Positions 2,445-13,485 of a DNA stretch of 64,000 bases are shown one piece after another. The translations under genes and the position numbers were made by a program. The notes under the pieces are model-generated. The model searched no databases and was not told where the DNA came from. It saw only the letters and a list, made by a program, of their open reading frames with translations. Where the stretch lies: assembly GCF_900115105.1 (NCBI RefSeq), contig NZ_FOYP01000002.1:248001-312000 (forward strand), given 5' to 3'. Position 1 is the first letter of the stretch. Each line of letters opens with the position of its first letter. This DNA comes from Yoonia tamlensis (GTDB lineage Bacteria > Pseudomonadota > Alphaproteobacteria > Rhodobacterales > Rhodobacteraceae).

Positions 2445-3425
2445 TCAGAACAAGATGTGTTGTCCTGCCAGAACATAGCCAGCAAGCGCAATTGTCAGGA
2501 TCAGGATCATCAGCGGCGCGGATCGTCCCACGGATCGCAGGTCTTCAAACGATGTTTTCATCCCAACGGCGGCAACCGCGGTCACAAGACAAGCGCGCGA
2601 CACGCTATCAGCGGTCTGGATCGCCACCGCAGGCAGCCAGCCTAGCGAATTCGTTCCGGCAAGCACCAAAAACCCGATCACAAAACCAGGGATCAGCGGC
2701 ACGCCTTCTGCGCCTTGACCGGATTGCCGCAAGAACAGCGCGCCGATAAATACGACCGGCGCCAACAGGCCCACGCGGAACAATTTGACCAGCGTCGAAA
2801 CATCCCCGGTTTCATCCGACACCGAATAGCCCGCGCCGACAACCTGCGCCACATCGTGGATTGTGCCACCCAAAAACACGCCCGCCGACTGGCTATCCAT
2901 GCCCAGCGCGCTGATCAGGATCGGATAGGCAATCATCGCCACGGTTGATGCCAGCGTGACCGAAACCACTGTAAATGTCACATCACGTTCGGATTTTTCG
3001 CCTTTGGGCAAAAGCGAAGCAATCGCCATCGCCGCCGAAGCCCCGCAAATCGCGACAGCCCCGCCAACCAGAAAACCAAATGACCGGTCCCGCCCGAACA
3101 ACGGCGCCATGACCAACCCCAACAGGATCGTCACCGCCACGCCGGACCCCACCAGCGCCACATTGGCAAAGCCGATCTGGGCGACCATATCTACGCTTAC
3201 CCGCACACCAAGCAGCGCAACGCCAATCCGCAAAACCCTGCGCGAAGCAAAGCCGATACCGGCTGCCGTACGCTCTTCGGTGGACAGGAATTGAAACGGA
3301 ATCCCCAAAAGGATCGCCATCAGCATGACTGGTGCGCCGTAATGTTCCGACAGAAACTGCGCGGCCATCGCCACCATTGCAGCAAATAGCAGGCCGGGGA
3401 AAACGGCCTTGGCGTTTAGTACCAT
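2445..3425 (-). CDS. yeiH: YeiH/UPF0324-family putative sulfate/sulfite exporter
   Basis: Integral membrane protein of 326 residues with about ten hydrophobic segments. It matches the YeiH family (UPF0324, Cons_hypoth698) through blocks such as LRIGVALLGVRVS, GGAVAICGASAAMAIA and GGTIHDVAQVVGAG. Members are annotated as putative sulfate exporters and are often linked to sulfonate metabolism. Its start overlaps the end of the ABC ATPase gene by 10 bases, so it is the last gene of the sulfosugar-type operon. In that setting the natural job is to export sulfite set free by the monooxygenase. Family membership is clear; the transported ion is inference. Confidence 0.85.
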   Translation of the reverse strand: MVLNAKAVFPGLLFAAMVAMAAQFLSEHYGAPVMLMAILLGIPFQFLSTEERTAAGIGFASRRVLRIGVALLGVRVSVDMVAQIGFANVALVGSGVAVTILLGLVMAPLFGRDRSFGFLVGGAVAICGASAAMAIASLLPKGEKSERDVTFTVVSVTLASTVAMIAYPILISALGMDSQSAGVFLGGTIHDVAQVVGAGYSVSDETGDVSTLVKLFRVGLLAPVVFIGALFLRQSGQGAEGVPLIPGFVIGFLVLAGTNSLGWLPAVAIQTADSVSRACLVTAVAAVGMKTSFEDLRSVGRSAPLMILILTIALAGYVLAGQHILF

Positions 3426-4480
3426 GCCTGCCCGCTTGCCTTATCAAACACAAACAGCGCATCCGGATTTATCGCCACACGCAACCCGTCGCCGATTTTA
3501 ACTTGTGTCTGGCCGGGCTGGTGTACCACGATGGATTCTCCTGATGAAAGCTCCGCGAAAAGGTAACTTTCAGCGCCAAGCTGTTCTACCTCGAGAATGC
3601 GCAGGTTGATAGGTCCGTCTGGATCAATGATCAGATCGCGGGGCCGGACACCCAGTTCGACCGCTGTGCCATCCGGCCCTTGCAGGCGCGCGGGGTCAAC
3701 CGCGATCACCGTCTTATCGGCAAGCGTAATTCCCTGCGGGCCGGTTTTGCCTTGCAAAAAGTTCATCGCGGGAGACCCGATAAACCCGGCCACAAAGCGG
3801 TTCTTGGGATTGTTGAACAGGTCCAAGGGCGTACCGAATTGTTCAACTTTTCCGGCCCGCAGGACCGCGATCTTGTCGGCCATCGTCATGGCTTCGACCT
3901 GATCATGGGTGACGTAAATCATTGTATTGCCCAACCGCCGGTGCAACGCGCCGATTTCACGGCGCATGCTGACGCGCAGTTCCGCATCAAGGTTGGACAG
4001 CGGTTCATCAAACAAAAACACTTTGGGTTCGCGCACAACCGCACGGCCAATCGCAACGCGCTGGCGCTGCCCGCCCGATAGCTGGCCCGGACGGCGATCA
4101 AGATAGGGATCAATTTGCAGCATCCGCGCGGCTTCTGACACACGCGCATTGATCTCGGCCTTTGGGGTGCGCAGGTTTTCAAGCCCGAAGCTGAGGTTCT
4201 TGCGCACCGACATATGCGGATAAAGCGCATAAGACTGGAACACCATCGCCAACCCGCGCTGCGCAGCCGGCACATGGTTTACAACCGCATCGTCAATTTC
4301 AATCTCGCCCGCGGTGATGCCTTCAAGCCCCGAAATCATCCGCAACAGCGTCGATTTTCCGCAACCTGATGGGCCAACGAATACACAGAATTCACCAGAT
4401 GGGATTTCCATATCAATGCCGTGGATAACATCGACATCGCCGTAAGATTTCTTCACGTCTTTAAGGACAAGTTTGGTCAT
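3416..4480 (-). CDS. Sugar ABC transporter ATP-binding protein (MalK/UgpC type)
   Basis: ATPase of 354 residues that powers the importer encoded by the next three upstream genes. Walker A is GPSGCGKS (residues 36-43), the signature LSGGQRQR follows, then Walker B FLFDEPLSNLD, and THDQVEAMTMAD as the H-loop region. The C-terminal third is the TOBE/OB-fold regulatory domain typical of MalK, UgpC and SmoE-like subunits (ELGVRPRDL, VEQLGAESYLF). The start used, MTKLVLKDVKKSYG, overlaps the permease stop by one base (TAATG). A longer open frame upstream to 4627 lies inside the permease gene and has no domain content. It belongs to the putative sulfoquinovose/sulfoquinovosyl-glycerol importer. Confidence 0.93.
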   Translation of the reverse strand: MTKLVLKDVKKSYGDVDVIHGIDMEIPSGEFCVFVGPSGCGKSTLLRMISGLEGITAGEIEIDDAVVNHVPAAQRGLAMVFQSYALYPHMSVRKNLSFGLENLRTPKAEINARVSEAARMLQIDPYLDRRPGQLSGGQRQRVAIGRAVVREPKVFLFDEPLSNLDAELRVSMRREIGALHRRLGNTMIYVTHDQVEAMTMADKIAVLRAGKVEQFGTPLDLFNNPKNRFVAGFIGSPAMNFLQGKTGPQGITLADKTVIAVDPARLQGPDGTAVELGVRPRDLIIDPDGPINLRILEVEQLGAESYLFAELSSGESIVVHQPGQTQVKIGDGLRVAINPDALFVFDKASGQAWY

Positions 4481-5916
4481 TATTTCAGTCCCGTATTGGC
4501 AATGCCGGTGGTGATGTATTTTTGCAAGAACACAAAGACGAGCGTGGAAGGCACAAGGCTGACCATCGTCATCGCAAGCCGGTAGTGTTCTTGCGACAGA
4601 TGTTCGCCGCGGAATTCCAGCAGGCATAGCTGGATAGTGTAGGCTTCTTTGGTGGTCGCAATCGCAACCAGCGGCAGGATCAGGTCATTCCAGCGCCAGA
4701 TGATCGACAAAATGCCCAGCGCCGCCAATGCTGGCATCGCCAATGGCAGCACAATGCGCCAGTAAACCTTCCATTCCGAAGCAGCATCCATGCGCGCGGC
4801 TTCGATCAATTCATCAGGGATCGACAGCATGTATTGCCGCAATAGGAACACGCCAGTTGGTGTCGCAGCCCCCGGAATAATCACACCCCAAATTGATCCC
4901 GATAGCCCTGTCGCGTTCACCGCCTTGAACACACCGACCAGCGTGATGGTCGGCGGCACCATCAAAGTTGCTAGAATGACGATGAAAAACGCGACCTGCC
5001 CGCGGAATTTGTATTTGGCCAGCGAAAACGCCGCCATCGAATTGATCAAAAGCGTCAGAACTGTTGCGATCAATGTGACCAGAACAGAATTGGTGAAACA
5101 GGTCGCAAAGTTCACATTCACCCCGAACGCATTACCTGTCAGCGGGTCCGAAAAATTGTTCCATGACGGGTCAAGCTGGCGGCGCATCGTGATCTCTGCC
5201 GTGTTCAGCCGCACGACATCCTCGCTGCGGTTATCGACATAGCGGGCAGGGGTAAGCGCGCGGGTGGCCTTAAAGTTGGATATCCCGAACAGCGTCTCTT
5301 CGCCGGTTTCAGGATCAGGCGCACGCACCAGAACCTGCAGCGCCAGTCGCGATGGTTCGTAACCGCCGATGCCCAAAAATTCGGACAAAAGCCGCTGATC
5401 TTCGGGCGCAAGCGTTGCGATCACTGCGGTCGGGTCGAAATCCTGTTTTGCCGATACCGACATCGACGGGTAGCGCAAAAGCCATTCTGGCAGGTCCTGT
5501 GCTGCGACCATGTCGCGGACCAATGTGGGCACATAGCCCAGTTGCGACCGCAGCGCATATAGTTCATTGCCCGACCATGCCGCCAGAAACGCGGGGATGT
5601 CGCGGCCGGCCTTTTGTTCGTCCGACAGATCGTTCCAGTTCAACACCCAATCGGGCAGGTCCTGAATAAAGAAAATCTCCTTGCCATCCGGTCCGGAAAC
5701 GGTGGCGCGCGCCACGCTTTCAAAGCTGGACGGCAGCAATGAAAGGTCCTGTTTTTCAAGCTGCGACGCGGATTTTAGTGAATTCAGCGCAAGCCACATG
5801 ACCGGCACAACGATCATCAAGAACCCGCTGAACAAGTAGGCATAGGTCAACCAGTCAAGCCAGTTTGCCCGACGGCCCCCCGCCTTGCGCGTCAGAAATG
5901 TTGCGATAGCTGTCAT
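4480..5916 (-). CDS. Sugar ABC transporter permease (MalG type) with large periplasmic insert
   Basis: Inner-membrane permease of 478 residues, much longer than the usual 275-300 for this family. After TM1 (residues about 20-45) comes a hydrophilic stretch of roughly 200 residues, presumably periplasmic, then five TM helices with the EAA loop ELIEAARMDAASEWKVYWRIV contacting the ATPase. The C-terminus is the typical FLQKYITTGIANTGLK. Its start overlaps the upstream permease gene by four bases (ATGA) and its stop overlaps the ATPase start by one base, so the order is binding protein, permease, permease, ATPase. Probable substrate from context is a sulfoquinovose glycoside. Confidence 0.9.
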   Translation of the reverse strand: MTAIATFLTRKAGGRRANWLDWLTYAYLFSGFLMIVVPVMWLALNSLKSASQLEKQDLSLLPSSFESVARATVSGPDGKEIFFIQDLPDWVLNWNDLSDEQKAGRDIPAFLAAWSGNELYALRSQLGYVPTLVRDMVAAQDLPEWLLRYPSMSVSAKQDFDPTAVIATLAPEDQRLLSEFLGIGGYEPSRLALQVLVRAPDPETGEETLFGISNFKATRALTPARYVDNRSEDVVRLNTAEITMRRQLDPSWNNFSDPLTGNAFGVNVNFATCFTNSVLVTLIATVLTLLINSMAAFSLAKYKFRGQVAFFIVILATLMVPPTITLVGVFKAVNATGLSGSIWGVIIPGAATPTGVFLLRQYMLSIPDELIEAARMDAASEWKVYWRIVLPLAMPALAALGILSIIWRWNDLILPLVAIATTKEAYTIQLCLLEFRGEHLSQEHYRLAMTMVSLVPSTLVFVFLQKYITTGIANTGLK

Positions 5917-6977
5917 TGTTTGCTCGATTTCGAAGAAAGGTAAACTTGCAGCAGCGACAGCATGATCAGCACGACAGCCACCAGTAACGACGCCATTGCG
6001 GCAATGCCCAGCCCGTTGGCCGTTGGTTGCCCGCGCAAGCCCGAGGTTTCAAAGATATAGCCGACCAGCGACGTCCAGCGCACCGACATGGCATAAAGCT
6101 CTTCAAAGGCTTGGAAAGCCTTGACCAGTGACAACACTGTCACCACCAAAAGCGTCGGCGCAAGCAGCGGGATCGTGATGCGGGTCAGTTGACGCCACGC
6201 AGGTGTGCCGTCCATTTCGGCAGCCTCATAGACATCGCGCGGGATCGCTTGCAGCCCTGCCAAAAGGATCAACATATAAAATCCCAGATGCGCCCAAGTG
6301 TAGACAAAGACCGACCAGAACATTGTCCATGACGGGTCTGTCAGCCATTGCACTGGCGCGTCGATCCAACCCCAGCGCAGCAGCGTTTCGGACAGCACAC
6401 CCTGGCGCTTGAGGATCAGGCTCCAGAGAAAACCGACGACCACGGGCGATAACATCACCGGGTAGAAGAAAACCGCGCGCCACAACCCGCGTGCGACGAT
6501 ATTGCGGTTCAACGCCAGCGCCGATGCCAGCGCGACCGCAATCATGATTGGGACCTGAAACACCACAAATGTTGCCGTATCGTAGACCGCGCTCAGGAAT
6601 TTGTCGTCTTCGAGGTTGGCGGCACCAGTGTCGATCTGGGTTTCAGACAGCAGACGGCGCAGGTTATCAAGCCCCGCCCATTCGCGGTCGGAAAACAGGA
6701 TAGATTGCCCTTCGGTCACCGAAAAACCCATATTGATGAACAGCGGCGCAAAGGTGAACAGCCCAAAGATGATCATATTGGGCAGCAAGAACAGATAGGG
6801 AAGCCCCGTTGCACCCGACAGGCGCTGGGTCATCTCGATGGGCCAGCCAAGCGTGCTCATGCTGCGGTCCCAGATGGTGCCGGTAGGGCGCACAAGCGCC
6901 CAACCGATGATCACATAGATCAGCAGGTAAAGCGGCCACGGCGAGCCGGAAAATGCAGCAGATAATGCCTCAGACAT
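5913..6977 (-). CDS. Sugar ABC transporter permease (MalF/UgpA type)
   Basis: Inner-membrane permease of 354 residues, partner of the MalG-type permease. It has an N-terminal TM segment (LYLLIYVIIGWALVRPTG), a second hydrophobic helix around LPYLFLLPNMIIFGLFTFAP, then a BPD_transp_1 core with the EAA loop (DVYEAAEMDGTPAWRQLTRI). The N-terminal extra helix is larger than in MalF-short homologues. It starts 22 bases after the stop of the binding-protein gene and overlaps the next permease by four bases, indicating translational coupling. Confidence 0.9.
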   Translation of the reverse strand: MSEALSAAFSGSPWPLYLLIYVIIGWALVRPTGTIWDRSMSTLGWPIEMTQRLSGATGLPYLFLLPNMIIFGLFTFAPLFINMGFSVTEGQSILFSDREWAGLDNLRRLLSETQIDTGAANLEDDKFLSAVYDTATFVVFQVPIMIAVALASALALNRNIVARGLWRAVFFYPVMLSPVVVGFLWSLILKRQGVLSETLLRWGWIDAPVQWLTDPSWTMFWSVFVYTWAHLGFYMLILLAGLQAIPRDVYEAAEMDGTPAWRQLTRITIPLLAPTLLVVTVLSLVKAFQAFEELYAMSVRWTSLVGYIFETSGLRGQPTANGLGIAAMASLLVAVVLIMLSLLQVYLSSKSSKQ

Positions 6978-6999
6978 GCCGTGACCCCTATCTTACGGC

Positions 7000-8265
7000 T
7001 TATTCAGCGATCTTGGCGGCGATATCCGCATCAATCGCGGCAAGCGCTTCGTCAAGGGTCAGCTCGCCTGTGATTGCCTGTGTCAGGTAGTCAGGAACCG
7101 CGCCATAGATGACAAAGTTCTTGGCATAGCCTTGCAGCGTATAGGCCTGCGGTGTGGTTTCAGCCGCAACGCCCGCATTGGCCGCAAAGACAGAAAGCGC
7201 CGCAGCAACCGCCGGGGATGCATCCGCATAGTCGATGCCTGACGCTTGCAGACCTTGGTGAGCTGTGATGTTGCGCGTGGCGGCGGCAAATTTCGCGGCA
7301 TTTTCTTCCATTGCAAGGAAGTCGATCAGCGCAGCGGCTGCTTCTGGCACGTCTGTCGATTCAAACGCGACAATCGCAGCACCGCCCGGCATTGCGCCAC
7401 AGCCACCATCACCGCATGGGGCAGGGACAGCAACCCAGTCGAAATCGGTGATGTTGTCAGCATAGCTGTTGATCATCCACGATCCAGACATGTGCATTGC
7501 AACATCGCCAGACTGGAACAGCGGTGCGGCGTTGCGGTACTGCGTGCCTTCGCCAGCGGGCCAGCCTTCGGCAGGCATCAGGCCGGATGCGTGCCAGCCG
7601 ACAAATGTTTCCGCAAAGTCACGGAAACCTGCGTCCACAAGGATCGGATTACCGGCATCGTCAAAGAATTTCGCGCCATAGCTAAATGCTGGGCCCGCCA
7701 AACGGTGTGCGGTACGGTCCATCGCCAGACCTGCGGTGATGCCGGTCATTTCCTTGACTTCCATCAGCGCAGTTGCCCAGTCGTCCCATGTCGCACCTGC
7801 CCCGGGCATTTCAACGCCGGCATCTTCGAACAGGGTCACGTTGACAAAGGGGCCTGTCACGGTCAGCTGGGTCATCCAGCCGTAGATGCCTGCATCTTCA
7901 CCACCGGGTTTGCGGAACCATGGCAATGTCGCGCCATAGGCGGTTTCCCATGCGGCGCCATCAACATAGGGGGCCAGATCAAGATAGTATTGGTTCAGGC
8001 CGCCCAAATTGGTCACACGCGCCACATCGGGGGCCGCATCTGTTTGCAACTGGTTTTCCAACTGGTCGCGGATCACGTCGTAAGCAACGGTTTCCAACGC
8101 GACGGTATGGCCGGTTTTTTCGGTGAATGCTGGCAGCATTTCAGCGATGACATCGCATTCGTTGCTGTCTTGATAGCAAAGAAACGATACTTCGTCCGCA
8201 TATGCGCCGCTTGCACCTGTCAGCATCAGCGCTGCCAAAGTCAGTTTGTTTGATTTCGTCTTCAT
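7000..8265 (-). CDS. smoF: Sugar ABC transporter substrate-binding protein (SmoF-like)
   Basis: Periplasmic binding protein of 421 residues of the extracellular solute-binding family 1. The start is set at MKTKSNKL because GGGGAGGA lies just upstream; the next upstream ATG would add six residues. The signal peptide runs to about ALMLTGASGAYA, with mature start near DEVSFLC. Family features include WDDWATALMEVKEMTG and the C-terminal ITGELTLDEALAAID. It sits 68 bases after the flavin reductase stop and leads the transporter genes. Assignment as a binder of sulfoquinovosyl-glycerol rests on the flanking SMO-type enzymes, not on ligand residues, so the symbol is tentative. Confidence 0.8.
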   Translation of the reverse strand: MKTKSNKLTLAALMLTGASGAYADEVSFLCYQDSNECDVIAEMLPAFTEKTGHTVALETVAYDVIRDQLENQLQTDAAPDVARVTNLGGLNQYYLDLAPYVDGAAWETAYGATLPWFRKPGGEDAGIYGWMTQLTVTGPFVNVTLFEDAGVEMPGAGATWDDWATALMEVKEMTGITAGLAMDRTAHRLAGPAFSYGAKFFDDAGNPILVDAGFRDFAETFVGWHASGLMPAEGWPAGEGTQYRNAAPLFQSGDVAMHMSGSWMINSYADNITDFDWVAVPAPCGDGGCGAMPGGAAIVAFESTDVPEAAAALIDFLAMEENAAKFAAATRNITAHQGLQASGIDYADASPAVAAALSVFAANAGVAAETTPQAYTLQGYAKNFVIYGAVPDYLTQAITGELTLDEALAAIDADIAAKIAE

Positions 8266-8333
8266 GGTGTCCTCCCCAGACAATCCGATTTCTTTCTTGG
8301 TCTTTGCTTTTGGCTGCCTCCTGCCACGCCACG

Positions 8334-8855
8334 CTATTGCGCGATGTGACCAGCCATTTTACCTCTAAAAAACGTCAATGCATCGCCATCGTCACGCTGT
8401 GCGGCGCGCAACACTTGCCCTACGACGATTTCATGATCGCCACCGTCATAAGACGCGTAGTGGCGGCATTCGAACCGCGCGAGACAACCCGCCAGCACCG
8501 GCACGCCTTCGGCATTGGTTGCCGGTGCCATTTCTGCCAACCCAGCCCCATCGCGGGCAATGCGCCAGCACAGGTCTTCTTGGTCCGCTGCCAGCACATG
8601 GATGGCAAAATGTTCCGCCTGCGCAAAATGCGCAAAACGGCGCGACCCCTTGTCAGGCGCCCAAAGCACAAGCGGCGGGTCCAGCGACAGCGACGAAAAA
8701 CTATTGGCGGTGATCGCCATCGGCCCGTTGGGGGTCGCAACGGTCACAATTGTGACGCCCGTCGCAAACCGCCCGAACGCATCGCGCAACTGGCGCGTAT
8801 TATTTGCGTCAGGGACAAAAGACCGCTGCGTTTTTGGTGTATCGGCCACGGTCAT
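8334..8855 (-). CDS. smoA: NAD(P)H:FMN reductase, flavin-reductase family (SmoA-like)
   Basis: Flavin reductase of 173 residues with the FMN-binding split-barrel fold. Diagnostic blocks are FGRFATGVTIVTV, ITANSFSSLSLDPPLVLW (FMN contact region) and GGDHEIVVGQV near the C-terminus. It would supply FMNH2 to the two-component monooxygenase two genes upstream. The start MTVADTP overlaps the aldo/keto reductase stop by four bases (ATGA). Any such reductase can serve alkanesulfonate, pyrimidine or EDTA monooxygenases; the aldo/keto reductase and sugar transporter next to it point to the SMO pathway. Confidence 0.82.
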   Translation of the reverse strand: MTVADTPKTQRSFVPDANNTRQLRDAFGRFATGVTIVTVATPNGPMAITANSFSSLSLDPPLVLWAPDKGSRRFAHFAQAEHFAIHVLAADQEDLCWRIARDGAGLAEMAPATNAEGVPVLAGCLARFECRHYASYDGGDHEIVVGQVLRAAQRDDGDALTFFRGKMAGHIAQ

Positions 8856-9745
8856 GGAACCTCTGCGCCCAATGCGGATTCGTACAGGTAGAACCAATCC
8901 TGACGGCTGATTGTGACCTTCAAAGCATCCGACAGCCGTGCAATCCGGTCCAGATTATTGGTGCCCAGAACCGGCAGGATTTTGGACGGGTGCCGCAGCA
9001 AGAACGCGACAGCTACGGCGGCCCGATCAACGCCCTGATCGCGCGCGATTTCATCCATCCGGTCGGTCAATGCATTTTGGCCTGTCATCAAATCGCCGCC
9101 ACCCAAGGGCGACCAAGCCATCATGGCGTGGCCATGGCGTTGATGGAATGCAATGTCACCATTGGTAAACGGTGCAATCGCCGAAGCAGAGATTTCGATC
9201 TGGTTGGTCACCAGTTTTTCGGTCATCGCGGATTGCAGCAATTCCCAGTCATAGGGGCGGAAATTCGACACACCAACCGCGCGCACCTTGCCCGATTTCA
9301 CCATTTCATCAAGGGCGGCACCGGTTTCATGATGATCCATGAGCGGGTCGGGGCGATGGATCAACAGCAAGTCAACGTAATCAGTGCCCATCGCCGCAAG
9401 CGATAGATCGACCGATGACGCGATATGCGCGCGGGTCGTGTCGTAGTATTTGCATTTCGAATCCGCATAGCGGCCCATAGGCGCCACGATATCGCATTTG
9501 GTCACGATCTCCATTTGCGGGCGCAAGGACGGGTCCGCCTTGAGCGCAACACCAAGAACGTCTTCGGCGGTATAGCCACCGTAAATATCGGCTTGGTCAA
9601 AAGTGGTGATCCCTTGCGCCAGACAGGCGTGGATTTTAGCCGCAACATGGGCGGCGGATGTGTCGGTATCATCGCCGATCCGCCACATGCCATAGACAAG
9701 CTGGCTAAAGGATAGATCAGGGGTGATTTGTATGCGCGGCATCAT
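8852..9745 (-). CDS. smoB: Aldo/keto reductase (SmoB-like, putative 6-oxo-glucose reductase)
   Basis: NAD(P)H-dependent aldo/keto reductase of 297 residues, TIM barrel. The catalytic tetrad is visible as Asp50, Tyr55 (TTFDQADIYGGY), Lys83 (VTKCDI) and His130 (LLLIHRPD); VGVSNFRPYDWELLQ and GTNNLDRIARL are family blocks, placing it near the YdhF group. In the SMO pathway this enzyme reduces 6-oxo-glucose, the product of sulfoquinovose desulfonation, to glucose. It overlaps the monooxygenase by one base and the flavin reductase by four, so the three enzymes are one translational unit. Without this context it would be only a generic reductase. Confidence 0.8.
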   Translation of the reverse strand: MMPRIQITPDLSFSQLVYGMWRIGDDTDTSAAHVAAKIHACLAQGITTFDQADIYGGYTAEDVLGVALKADPSLRPQMEIVTKCDIVAPMGRYADSKCKYYDTTRAHIASSVDLSLAAMGTDYVDLLLIHRPDPLMDHHETGAALDEMVKSGKVRAVGVSNFRPYDWELLQSAMTEKLVTNQIEISASAIAPFTNGDIAFHQRHGHAMMAWSPLGGGDLMTGQNALTDRMDEIARDQGVDRAAVAVAFLLRHPSKILPVLGTNNLDRIARLSDALKVTISRQDWFYLYESALGAEVP

Positions 9746-10899
9746 TAGCGGCGGACTCCATTTCCAAGTGGTGTTGCGGGAACACCCGAAGGCACGCGCC
9801 CATAAGCATGAGGCAAGGAACAGGTTTTCATCTGCGGCAACACGCGCGACCCAAAGTGTACGGCCTCATCCATATGCGGATAACCCGACAAGATAAACGC
9901 GCGGATACCCATTTTCTGATAGGCTTCCAGTTTTGACAGGACCTGATCGGTCGACCCGACAAGCGCAGCACCACAGCCAGAGCGCGCACGGCCGACCCCT
10001 GTCCAGAGGTTGGGCTCAATATAGCCGAAATCATCCGCGATTTCACGGTTTTTCGCCTGATGGCTCACGCCAAGCGATTTGGCGTCCTGCGCGCGGTTGC
10101 GGATGGCATCGCCCTGATCATCATCCAGCTTGGACACGATATAGTCGGCATATTCGCGGGCTTCGGCTTCGGTGTCGCGCACGATGACGTGGACGCGCAG
10201 ACCATAATCGAGCGTGCGATTGTATTTTTCGGCAACCGCATTCACGGCTTTCATCCGGCCTGCCAGTTCATCAACTTTTTCGGGCCACATCAGATAGACG
10301 TCGCAATGTTCACCGCAAAGTTCCAGTGCCGCCGGAGAATAGCCGCCAAAATACAGCAGCGGACCGCCGGTTTGGTAGGGGCGCACAGGGTCCGTTGTCA
10401 GGCCGGAGAAATTGTAGATCTCGCCTTTGTGGTTAATCTCGTCTTGGGTCCACGCCTGTTTCAGGATCTCGACCACTTCGCGGGACCGCTGGTAACGGTA
10501 GTTGCTGTCTTCGATCTGCCCCGGAAAATCAGAGCTGATGATATTCACGGTCAACCGCCCGTTGAGCATATGATCCAGTGTCGCGATGGTGCGGGCAAGC
10601 ATGATCGGCTGCATTTCACCGCAACGCACCGCTGCCAACATGTTGATGTCTGATGTGATCGGCGCGCAGCCCGCCACAAAGCTAAGCGTGTCCTGCCCGA
10701 CTTGATAGGATGACGGGCATAGAATATTGCGAAATCCCTGCTTTTCCGCCGTTTTCACGATATTCGAACAATGGTCCCAAGATGACCGAAGCGCACCGTC
10801 TGGCTGGCCAAGAAATTGGTAATCATCCGAACACAGTGCTGCAAACCACGACACTTCGGCGGAATCAAGTTCAGCAGAAGTTACCGGAACTACGGTCAT
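9745..10899 (-). CDS. smoC: FMNH2-dependent monooxygenase, LLM family (SmoC-like sulfoquinovose monooxygenase)
   Basis: Luciferase-like monooxygenase of 384 residues, related to alkanesulfonate monooxygenase SsuD. Blocks include SSYQVGQDTLSFVAGCAPIT, GRLTVNIISSDFPGQ, YFGGYSPAALELCGEHCDVYLMW and the C-terminal ALVGSTDQVLSKLEAYQKMGIR. It is predicted to use O2 and FMNH2 from the flavin reductase to cleave the C-S bond of sulfoquinovose, giving 6-oxo-glucose and sulfite. The start at MTVVPVTSAELDS is chosen because GGGGAGGA lies seven bases upstream; the longer frame to 10992 runs into the divergent promoter. It is the first gene of the minus-strand operon. An SsuD-like role on another sulfonate remains possible, but transporter type (sugar, not SsuABC) and the aldo/keto reductase argue for a sulfosugar. 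Confidence 0.8.
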   Translation of the reverse strand: MTVVPVTSAELDSAEVSWFAALCSDDYQFLGQPDGALRSSWDHCSNIVKTAEKQGFRNILCPSSYQVGQDTLSFVAGCAPITSDINMLAAVRCGEMQPIMLARTIATLDHMLNGRLTVNIISSDFPGQIEDSNYRYQRSREVVEILKQAWTQDEINHKGEIYNFSGLTTDPVRPYQTGGPLLYFGGYSPAALELCGEHCDVYLMWPEKVDELAGRMKAVNAVAEKYNRTLDYGLRVHVIVRDTEAEAREYADYIVSKLDDDQGDAIRNRAQDAKSLGVSHQAKNREIADDFGYIEPNLWTGVGRARSGCGAALVGSTDQVLSKLEAYQKMGIRAFILSGYPHMDEAVHFGSRVLPQMKTCSLPHAYGRVPSGVPATPLGNGVRR

Positions 10900-10978: not shown

Positions 10979-10992
10979 TTGATCTGGATCAA
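10979..10992. promoter_or_regulatory. Perfect palindrome in divergent smo-type promoter; FNR-type box or GntR operator
   Basis: TTGATCTGGATCAA has perfect arms TTGATC/GATCAA. It also fits the FNR/FnrL consensus TTGAT-N4-ATCAA exactly. It lies in the region between the monooxygenase and GntR genes and touches the first possible GntR start codon, which suggests that this start may be too far upstream. It could bind the adjacent GntR protein or an FnrL-type oxygen sensor; the sequence cannot decide. Confidence 0.6.
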
Positions 10993-11741
10993 TGGTGTAT
11001 CAATTTTTTCCGAAAGCAGCCAGAAACGCGATGTACGTCAAAAGCCAAACTGCCAGTTCCTTGCCCCTTTATGTGCAAATCAGCGAAGTCCTGATCCGCG
11101 AAATTGCCTCTGGGCATTTGCTGGACGGGGTGCGACTGCCGCCTGAACGGGTGCTTGCTAAACAACATGGAACAACCGTACGGACGCTGCGTAAAGCATT
11201 GGCAATCCTTGAAAAAAATGGGTTGATCGAAAGCATTCAAGGGTCCGGAAACTATGTGCGCAAGACCCCTGATGTTGCCAGCGTCTATTCAATGTTTCGG
11301 CTGGAATTGCCGCGCGGCGGGGGGTTGCCAACGGCGCAGGTTCTGTCTGTGCAAGAGCTTCGAAAACCTGACAATATGCCGCAATTTGGCACGTCCGATG
11401 ATGCCACAAGAATACGGCGTTTGCGGTTCTTGAACCAAGAACCCATCGCCGTCGAAGAAATCTGGCTGGACCGGAGCGCAGGCAAGATTGTGCCCGCCGA
11501 ACTGTCTGATTCGCTTTACCGCTATTACAAGATGCGGCTTGGTTTCTGGATTACCCACGCCGAGGATTATGTCTCGATCGGGCAAACCCCCGATTGGGCA
11601 CCTGTGAATTTCGCACCGAGCCACGGCCAGACCGTCGGCTTCATCGAGCGGATAAGCCATGCCGAACAATTTGGTTCGGTCGAATATTCGAAAACTTGGT
11701 TTGACCCGCAGCGCGCCCGCTATGTGCAGCGCCTGCGATAG
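10992..11741 (+). CDS. GntR-family transcriptional regulator (HutC/UTRA type)
   Basis: Repressor-type protein of 249 residues. An N-terminal winged helix covers about residues 25-90 (LYVQISEVLIREIASGHLL, RLPPERVLAKQHG, TVRTLRKALAILEKNGLI), followed by a UTRA effector domain (IRRLRFLNQEPIAVEEIWL, GFIERISHAEQFGSVEYS). UTRA domains bind small sugars or sugar phosphates. The gene is divergent from the monooxygenase operon and stops ten bases before the oxidoreductase gene, so it probably controls both. The ATG at 11031 (MYVKSQTASS) is a realistic alternative start; neither start has a strong ribosome site, and the first overlaps the palindrome. Confidence 0.88.
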   Translation: MVYQFFPKAARNAMYVKSQTASSLPLYVQISEVLIREIASGHLLDGVRLPPERVLAKQHGTTVRTLRKALAILEKNGLIESIQGSGNYVRKTPDVASVYSMFRLELPRGGGLPTAQVLSVQELRKPDNMPQFGTSDDATRIRRLRFLNQEPIAVEEIWLDRSAGKIVPAELSDSLYRYYKMRLGFWITHAEDYVSIGQTPDWAPVNFAPSHGQTVGFIERISHAEQFGSVEYSKTWFDPQRARYVQRLR

Positions 11742-11750
11742 GGAGGAAAC

Positions 11751-12860
11751 ATGTCAAACACCACCAACTACGGCATCATCGGCTGCGGCATGATGGGCCA
11801 TGAACACATGCGCAACATTGCGTTGCTGGATAACGCACGCGTCGCGGCCGTGTTCGAACCTGACGCGGGCATGGCGGCGATCGCGCAATCTATCGCGCCC
11901 GATGTGCAACTGATGGACAGTATTGATGCGCTTTTGGCGCTGCCCGATCTTGATTGCATTTTGATCGCCAGTCCAAATTTCAGACATATCGAGCAGCTCG
12001 AAATGCTTGCAGCGCAACGGCATTTGCCTGTGCTGGTCGAAAAACCCCTGTTCACGGATATCGAACAGCTTGGGCGGCTCAAGACATTTATCGATACATA
12101 TCCTTCGCCTGTCTGGGTTGCGATGGAATACCGCTATATGCCCCCCATCGCCGCGCTGTTGAACTGCGTTGACGACGTGACGGGCGGGATCAAGATGCTG
12201 ACGATCCGCGAACACCGCTTTCCGTTTCTGGAAAAAGTCGGCGACTGGAACCGGTTTGATCGCTATTCCGGCGGAACATTTGTCGAAAAATGCTGTCACT
12301 TCTTTGACCTGATGCGGCTTGTGCTGAAATCCGAGCCCGTCCGCGTGATGGCGTCGGGCGGGCAGGATGCGAACCATATCGAGGAGCGGTATAATGGCGA
12401 ACAGCCCGATATCTTGGATAATGGCTATGTCATTGTTGACTTCGCGAACGGCAGCCGCGCGATGCTTGAACTTTGTATGTTCGCCGAAGGTGCACAATAC
12501 CAAGAAGAAGTGTCCGCCGTCGGCCCGATGGGCAAGGTCGAAGCTTTTGTACCCGGTCCCGGACGGTTCTGGCCCGAACATCTTGGCGATGCGCCGCTGC
12601 CCCAGTTGATTGTCAGCCCACGCAAACCCAAAGGTCCGGTAAAGCGCGATATCCCCGTAGACCCCGCCCTGCTAGAGGCCGGCGACCACAACGGGTCAAC
12701 CTATTATCAGCACCAGAAGTTCCTTGAACTTGTCCGCGGCCAACGCAACGCGCCAGAAGTATCATTGATCGATGGCAAGATGGCTGTGCTTCTTGGCATG
12801 GCCGCGCAAATATCGATCCGCGAGCACCGCACAGTGCATATGAACGAGCTTCTGGGCTAG
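11751..12860 (+). CDS. Gfo/Idh/MocA-family oxidoreductase; candidate NAD+-dependent sulfoquinovosidase (GH188/SqgA-like)
   Basis: NAD-dependent protein of 369 residues. A Rossmann fold opens with GIIGCGMMGHEHMRN, the cofactor-proximal VEKPL is at about residue 96, and the C-terminal domain carries GGTFVEKCCHFFDLMRL, where the Lys and His sit in the family's catalytic positions. It follows the GntR gene by nine bases with GGAGG before the start. Sulfosugar clusters that lack a classical GH31 sulfoquinovosidase, including some in roseobacters, are known to carry an oxidoreductive sulfoquinovosidase of this superfamily. No GH31 gene is seen in this window, so that role is the best inference. A plain sugar dehydrogenase or inositol-type dehydrogenase is the alternative. 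Confidence 0.72.
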   Translation: MSNTTNYGIIGCGMMGHEHMRNIALLDNARVAAVFEPDAGMAAIAQSIAPDVQLMDSIDALLALPDLDCILIASPNFRHIEQLEMLAAQRHLPVLVEKPLFTDIEQLGRLKTFIDTYPSPVWVAMEYRYMPPIAALLNCVDDVTGGIKMLTIREHRFPFLEKVGDWNRFDRYSGGTFVEKCCHFFDLMRLVLKSEPVRVMASGGQDANHIEERYNGEQPDILDNGYVIVDFANGSRAMLELCMFAEGAQYQEEVSAVGPMGKVEAFVPGPGRFWPEHLGDAPLPQLIVSPRKPKGPVKRDIPVDPALLEAGDHNGSTYYQHQKFLELVRGQRNAPEVSLIDGKMAVLLGMAAQISIREHRTVHMNELLG

Positions 12861-13077: not shown

Positions 13078-13485
13078 ATGACAAACCTGATCAAAGCATT
13101 TGCAATCTCTACAGCAATCACAACAACAACTTTTGCGCCTATCCAAGCGCAGGCCGGCATCACAACTTTGGGTGAATGCTACGAAGCCGTGATCAATTGG
13201 TGCAACGAAACCTTCCCTGACCATGACTGCAGCCAGACAAGTGGCCTTGACGATTGTGACGAAGAATTCGGCAATGCGATTGGCGGTCTCGACATCACAG
13301 GGATCATCGCGACAAAGCGGGAAGACGAAACCTATACTTTGCGCTTTGAAGGCCCGTCAGTCCCCGAGGACGACAAAGACGAAGGCCGTGGCAGCGACGA
13401 TGATGATCGTGACGACGACCGCGAACCGACACGCCGCCCAACAGTCGACCCACGCAACCCTACATCTGCACCAACACGCGGCTAA
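13078..13485 (+). CDS. Small secreted acidic protein, unknown function
   Basis: Not recognised. The product has 135 residues with a likely signal peptide (MTNLIKAFAISTAITTTTFA, cleavage near IQAQA). The mature part has four cysteines (GECYE, NWCNE, HDCSQ, DDCDE), which could form two disulfides, then a short beta-like region (TYTLRFEGPS) and a strongly charged Asp/Arg tail (GSDDDDRDDDREPTRRP) ending in a Pro/Thr-rich stretch. GGAG lies ten bases upstream of the start. The acidic tail could bind calcium or interact with the cell surface, but this is speculation. A long hairpin follows the gene. Confidence 0.7.
   Translation: MTNLIKAFAISTAITTTTFAPIQAQAGITTLGECYEAVINWCNETFPDHDCSQTSGLDDCDEEFGNAIGGLDITGIIATKREDETYTLRFEGPSVPEDDKDEGRGSDDDDRDDDREPTRRPTVDPRNPTSAPTRG

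Follow-up and report, generated by a model that had tools for sequence, protein, structure and literature searches.

A predicted NAD+-dependent sulfoquinovosidase of family GH188 in a sulfo-SMO gene cluster of Yoonia tamlensis

Which enzyme would release sulfoquinovose (SQ), a sulfosugar of plants and algae, from its glycosides in a sulfo-SMO gene cluster whose genome has no GH31 sulfoquinovosidase (SQase)? The question arises at a locus of Yoonia tamlensis that lies within a 64,000-nucleotide stretch of contig NZ_FOYP01000002.1 (the window), and we focus here on one gene of that locus, sqgA (Table 1). Judged from its sequence and setting, this gene very probably encodes a GH188 NAD+-dependent SQase, SqgA, that frees SQ for SmoC, SmoA and SmoB. 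A GH188 gene in a roseobacter sulfo-SMO cluster is not new: Kaur et al. 2023 (PMC10755693), who defined the family, had already described the arrangement.

Table 1. Features of the locus, in window coordinates
Feature	Position	Strand	Basis or remark
YeiH/UPF0324 putative sulfate exporter	2445..3425	-	PF03601, 6.9e-63
ABC importer ATPase, MalK/UgpC type	3416..4627	-	NF008653
ABC importer permease 2, long extra N-terminal part	4480..5916	-	PF00528
ABC importer permease 1	5913..6977	-	PF00528
Sugar ABC importer solute-binding protein	7000..8283	-	PF01547/PF13416
smoA, flavin reductase supplying FMNH2	8334..8897	-	PF01613, 4.4e-36
smoB, aldo-keto reductase (6-dehydroglucose to glucose)	8852..9745	-	7bbz/7bby
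smoC, FMNH2-dependent sulfoquinovose monooxygenase	9745..10899	-	alignment to 7olf, 7oh2
Conserved palindrome TTGATCTGGATCAA, candidate operator	10979..10992	.	exact TTGAT-N4-ATCAA
smoD-like GntR/UTRA regulator	10992..11741	+	PF00392, PF07702; start may be 11028-11037
sqgA-like, predicted GH188 NAD+-dependent sulfoquinovosidase, 369 aa	11751..12860	+	homology and residues

The sqgA reading frame is intact, begins with ATG and matches the Pfam models GFO_IDH_MocA (2.8e-18) and GFO_IDH_MocA_C (6.7e-17). The Gfo/Idh/MocA motifs that a first-pass annotation had read in the protein are present at residues 11–16 (GxGxxG, as GCGMMG), 96–99 (VEKP) and 180–186 (KCCHFFD), and its description of the gene as translationally near a GntR gene agrees with the 9-bp gap, containing the ribosome-binding site GGAGGAAAC, that separates the end of the regulator gene from the sqgA ATG. 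The two genes, which adjoin each other in 79 of 80 relatives, probably share one transcript. The next gene after sqgA (13078–13485) encodes a small predicted protein with an Asp-rich acidic tail and without a Pfam match.

First of all, the protein is homologous to GH188 enzymes over its full length. Members with proven biochemistry are FlSqgA (8QC2/8QC8) and ArSqgA (8QC3/8QC5/8QC6), from the distant hosts Flavobacterium and Arthrobacter (Kaur et al. 2023, PMC10755693). A PDB sequence search returned 8zn9 as the top match (E 6.6e-158, 64% identity), for which a literature search gave no paper on its solving or assay; the nearest assayed enzymes are FlSqgA (8qc2; 49% identity, E 1.5e-107) and ArSqgA (8qc3; 47% identity, E 2.3e-102), whose alignments span 358–359 residues, and at 47–49% identity the activity of the Yoonia protein is a sequence-based prediction. 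A homologue from Yoonia is 87% identical. The first match outside the GH188 structures is an inositol 2-dehydrogenase, whose E value of 9.8e-19 lies over 80 orders of magnitude behind, and inositol-type dehydrogenases reach just 23–29% identity over partial length. In a maximum-likelihood tree, whose outgroup branches are very long, the protein and its homologues group with 8zn9, 8qc2 and 8qc3, and the branch that unites the GH188 structures with this group has support of 91/79. GH109, a family of NAD+-dependent N-acetylgalactosaminidases, has its fold and kind of mechanism in common with GH188, but carries Tyr226 where GH188 has Glu (PMC10755693), and it gave no match by sequence in our PDB search.

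Automated labels would lead elsewhere, to an ordinary sugar or inositol dehydrogenase that stands beside sulfo-SMO genes by coincidence. The top NCBIfam match of the protein is to IolG (TIGR04380), and Gfo/Idh/MocA proteins form a large superfamily, to which eight PF01408 genes of this genome belong; the IolG score of 99.8 bits, however, falls far below the cut-off of 355, and the much better PDB matches to GH188 structures, the lack of sulfonate-binding residues in two inositol-type dehydrogenases and the tight linkage of sqgA to SmoC (see below) together make such a coincidence extremely unlikely. No GH188-specific model fired in the NCBIfam and Pfam versions used, which left the protein labelled merely as a Gfo/Idh/MocA oxidoreductase; many such genes are thus probably unlabelled.

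Second, the active site is conserved. The contacts to SQ and to its sulfonate group are listed in the paper that defined GH188 (PMC10755693), and we mapped them through the ArSqgA register, taken as chain index minus 13. The catalytic and sugar contacts Lys107, Tyr136, Glu189, His193 and His321 are kept as K98, Y127, E179, H183 and H313, and the sulfonate site, Arg166, Leu170 and Lys172, as R156, L160 and K162. The published Glu163 aligns to Val in the register used, with a Glu standing one residue on (E154 here), which is presumably the residue meant. All nine positions are invariant across 80 homologues fetched from other genomes. The residues are absent as a set from six of the seven paralogues in the genome itself, the check having left out L086 and included the badly truncated sequence of L087, and the two inositol-type dehydrogenases likewise lack the set. 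The placement with GH188 and apart from inositol dehydrogenases, which the first-pass annotation had proposed as a check, is thus upheld by the PDB search, the residues and the tree.

The same residues bear on whether a GH188 enzyme at this locus might have shifted its specificity, towards the glycoside of another sulfosugar or towards the beta-linked SQ of glycans, in place of sulfolipid-derived SQ-glycerol. A GH188 enzyme is known to accept both alpha and beta anomers (PMC10755693), and the importer encoded here is unlike that of most relatives. Against this, none of the SQ contacts varies, not even Leu170, which is variable in the Tyr subgroups described in PMC11465081, and we regard a shifted specificity as very unlikely, if slightly less so than a chance neighbour from among the dehydrogenases. 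An SqgA acting on sulfolipid-derived glycosides is by far the better reading.

Third, no classical enzyme is available to take the place of SqgA. The first-pass annotation had noted that the window holds no GH31 SQase, and one just outside it would, by that annotation, have spoken against the reading; whole-genome profile searches found none inside or outside, and the absence extends to the entire genome of 3.19 Mb, estimated to be 100% complete. The YihQ model NF007746 had no match in the whole genome. The sole match to the GH31 profile PF01055 (G000:C7:1877320, 26 bits) might have been an SQase in disguise, but it proved to be a GH36 melibiase (PF02065, 342 bits). In two related genomes (G211 and G112), true GH31 genes (L096 and L101) stand at a distance of 2–9 kb from smoC or sqgA. 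By their scores, 272 and 270 bits for the alpha-glucosidase MalA vs 149 and 130 for YihQ, both resemble alpha-glucosidases more than SQases. The gene from Y. tamlensis resembles the SqgA genes of PMC10755693 in its whole-length homology, in all published contacts and in its setting in an SQ cluster without GH31.

Fourth, the neighbours of sqgA are those of an SQ pathway. SmoA, SmoB and SmoC are all encoded beside it, and this combination of an LLM-class monooxygenase, an aldo-keto reductase and a flavin reductase identifies a sulfo-SMO cluster. The listed smoC reading frame runs to 10992 with a TTG start, and its Met32 corresponds to Met1 of the solved enzymes; the alignment of residues 32–414 spans the whole length, at E 1.9e-210 to 7olf and 1.7e-202 to 7oh2, vs 1e-54 or weaker for other alkanesulfonate monooxygenases and 8e-52 for the ordinary SsuD 1m41. 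SmoB aligns end to end with 7bbz and 7bby (E about 3e-120), with the next family (4r9o, YdhF) at about 1e-58. We take 7olf and 7oh2 to be SmoC and 7bbz and 7bby to be SmoB, their PDB names following older annotations. For smoA, the NCBIfam model NF052639 scores 205.7 bits, under its cut-off, and the listed reading frame has a TTG start, so that the real start may be internal. The structures 7OH2 and 7BBY presumably represent the Agrobacterium sulfo-SMO cluster, which is like the present one in its orthologous SmoC and SmoB and in ABC import. Where the cluster described here has sqgA, that of Agrobacterium relies on SmoI, an SQase of family GH31. The smo genes, together with the ABC importer and the YeiH-family gene, are divergent from smoD and sqgA, and the core, in which smoA-smoB-smoC faces smoD-sqgA, recurs in roughly 75 of the 80 relatives fetched and among the published roseobacter clusters that carry GH188 (Kaur et al. 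2023, Figure S17).

The association with SmoC holds across the family. In a survey of 296 genomes, nearly all from different genera, SqgA homologues (E <= 1e-60) occur in 146, which excludes chance, and SmoC in 124, with both in 122. SqgA is found in 122 of the 124 genomes with SmoC vs 24 of the 172 without it (Fisher p 1.8e-55, a value inflated by kinship, since related genomes share ancestry and the test overstates their independence). The linkage is also physical, SmoC lying near SqgA in 78 of 80 fetched loci. The 24 SqgA proteins from genomes without detectable SmoC are mostly about 50% identical, some of them 60–64% (G040, G143, G201), and probably serve other SQ pathways. That GH188 occurs in roseobacter sulfosugar clusters, as the first-pass annotation had stated, was already reported as near-universal for sulfo-SMO clusters (Kaur et al. 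2023, PMC10755693), and the 122 of 124 genomes give this independent support.

The locus departs from the ordinary in two side observations, namely its importer, which is of ABC type where TRAP is usual, and a palindrome that separates smoC from smoD. Roseobacter sulfo-SMO clusters mostly have a DctP/DctM TRAP transporter (63 of 80 loci), whereas the window has a sugar ABC importer of four genes (3416–8283) that is common to just 7 of the 80. In the PDB, the solute-binding protein finds sugar-binding proteins at low similarity only, with no close solved relative and, in a difference from the Agrobacterium sulfo-SMO cluster, no match labelled SmoF. Permease 2 (478 aa) is covered by PF00528 at residues 295–470 only, with about 260 extra N-terminal residues, and the ATPase matches NF008653 over the cut-off (471.7 bits) from residue 50, near which its true start lies. 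The YeiH-family gene (TIGR00698, 120 bits, under the cut-off), present in 26 of 80 related loci, is a possible outlet for a sulfur oxyanion. The palindrome is exact in 53 of 77 related smoC–smoD intergenic regions, the window's own counted in, and is followed by a conserved GGTGTATCAATT; it is the single such site in the window, with eight in the genome and 61 in total over all fetched loci (1.75 Mb). Its form is that of an FNR box, and a second copy elsewhere in the genome adjoins a gene that, judged by eye, is apparently ccoG. The palindrome may be bound by SmoD or by FnrL. Tentatively, the two features may mark a Yoonia/Loktanella-type variant, in which an ABC importer for intact SQ glycosides replaces TRAP and the palindrome either ties the O2-dependent pathway to oxygen supply or serves as the SmoD operator, although we consider this somewhat doubtful.

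Gene context and the published GH188 chemistry (PMC10755693) suggest that sqgA opens the pathway, as the first-pass annotation had proposed. Sulfoquinovosyl glycerol or a related glycoside would be imported, most likely via the adjacent ABC transporter. Within SqgA, if the cycle of FlSqgA and ArSqgA carries over (PMC10755693), bound NAD+ would oxidise C3, the aglycone would be eliminated across C1–C2, and the addition of water and the reduction of C3 would then yield free SQ, the overall result being the hydrolysis of an alpha- or beta-sulfoquinovoside. SmoC with SmoA would cleave the C–S bond of SQ, and SmoB would convert the resulting 6-dehydroglucose to glucose. Roseobacters are probably able to use sulfolipid-derived glycosides, beyond free sulfoquinovose. 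This was the ecological message of Kaur et al. 2023 (PMC10755693), and the present locus adds one more marine-type genome to it.
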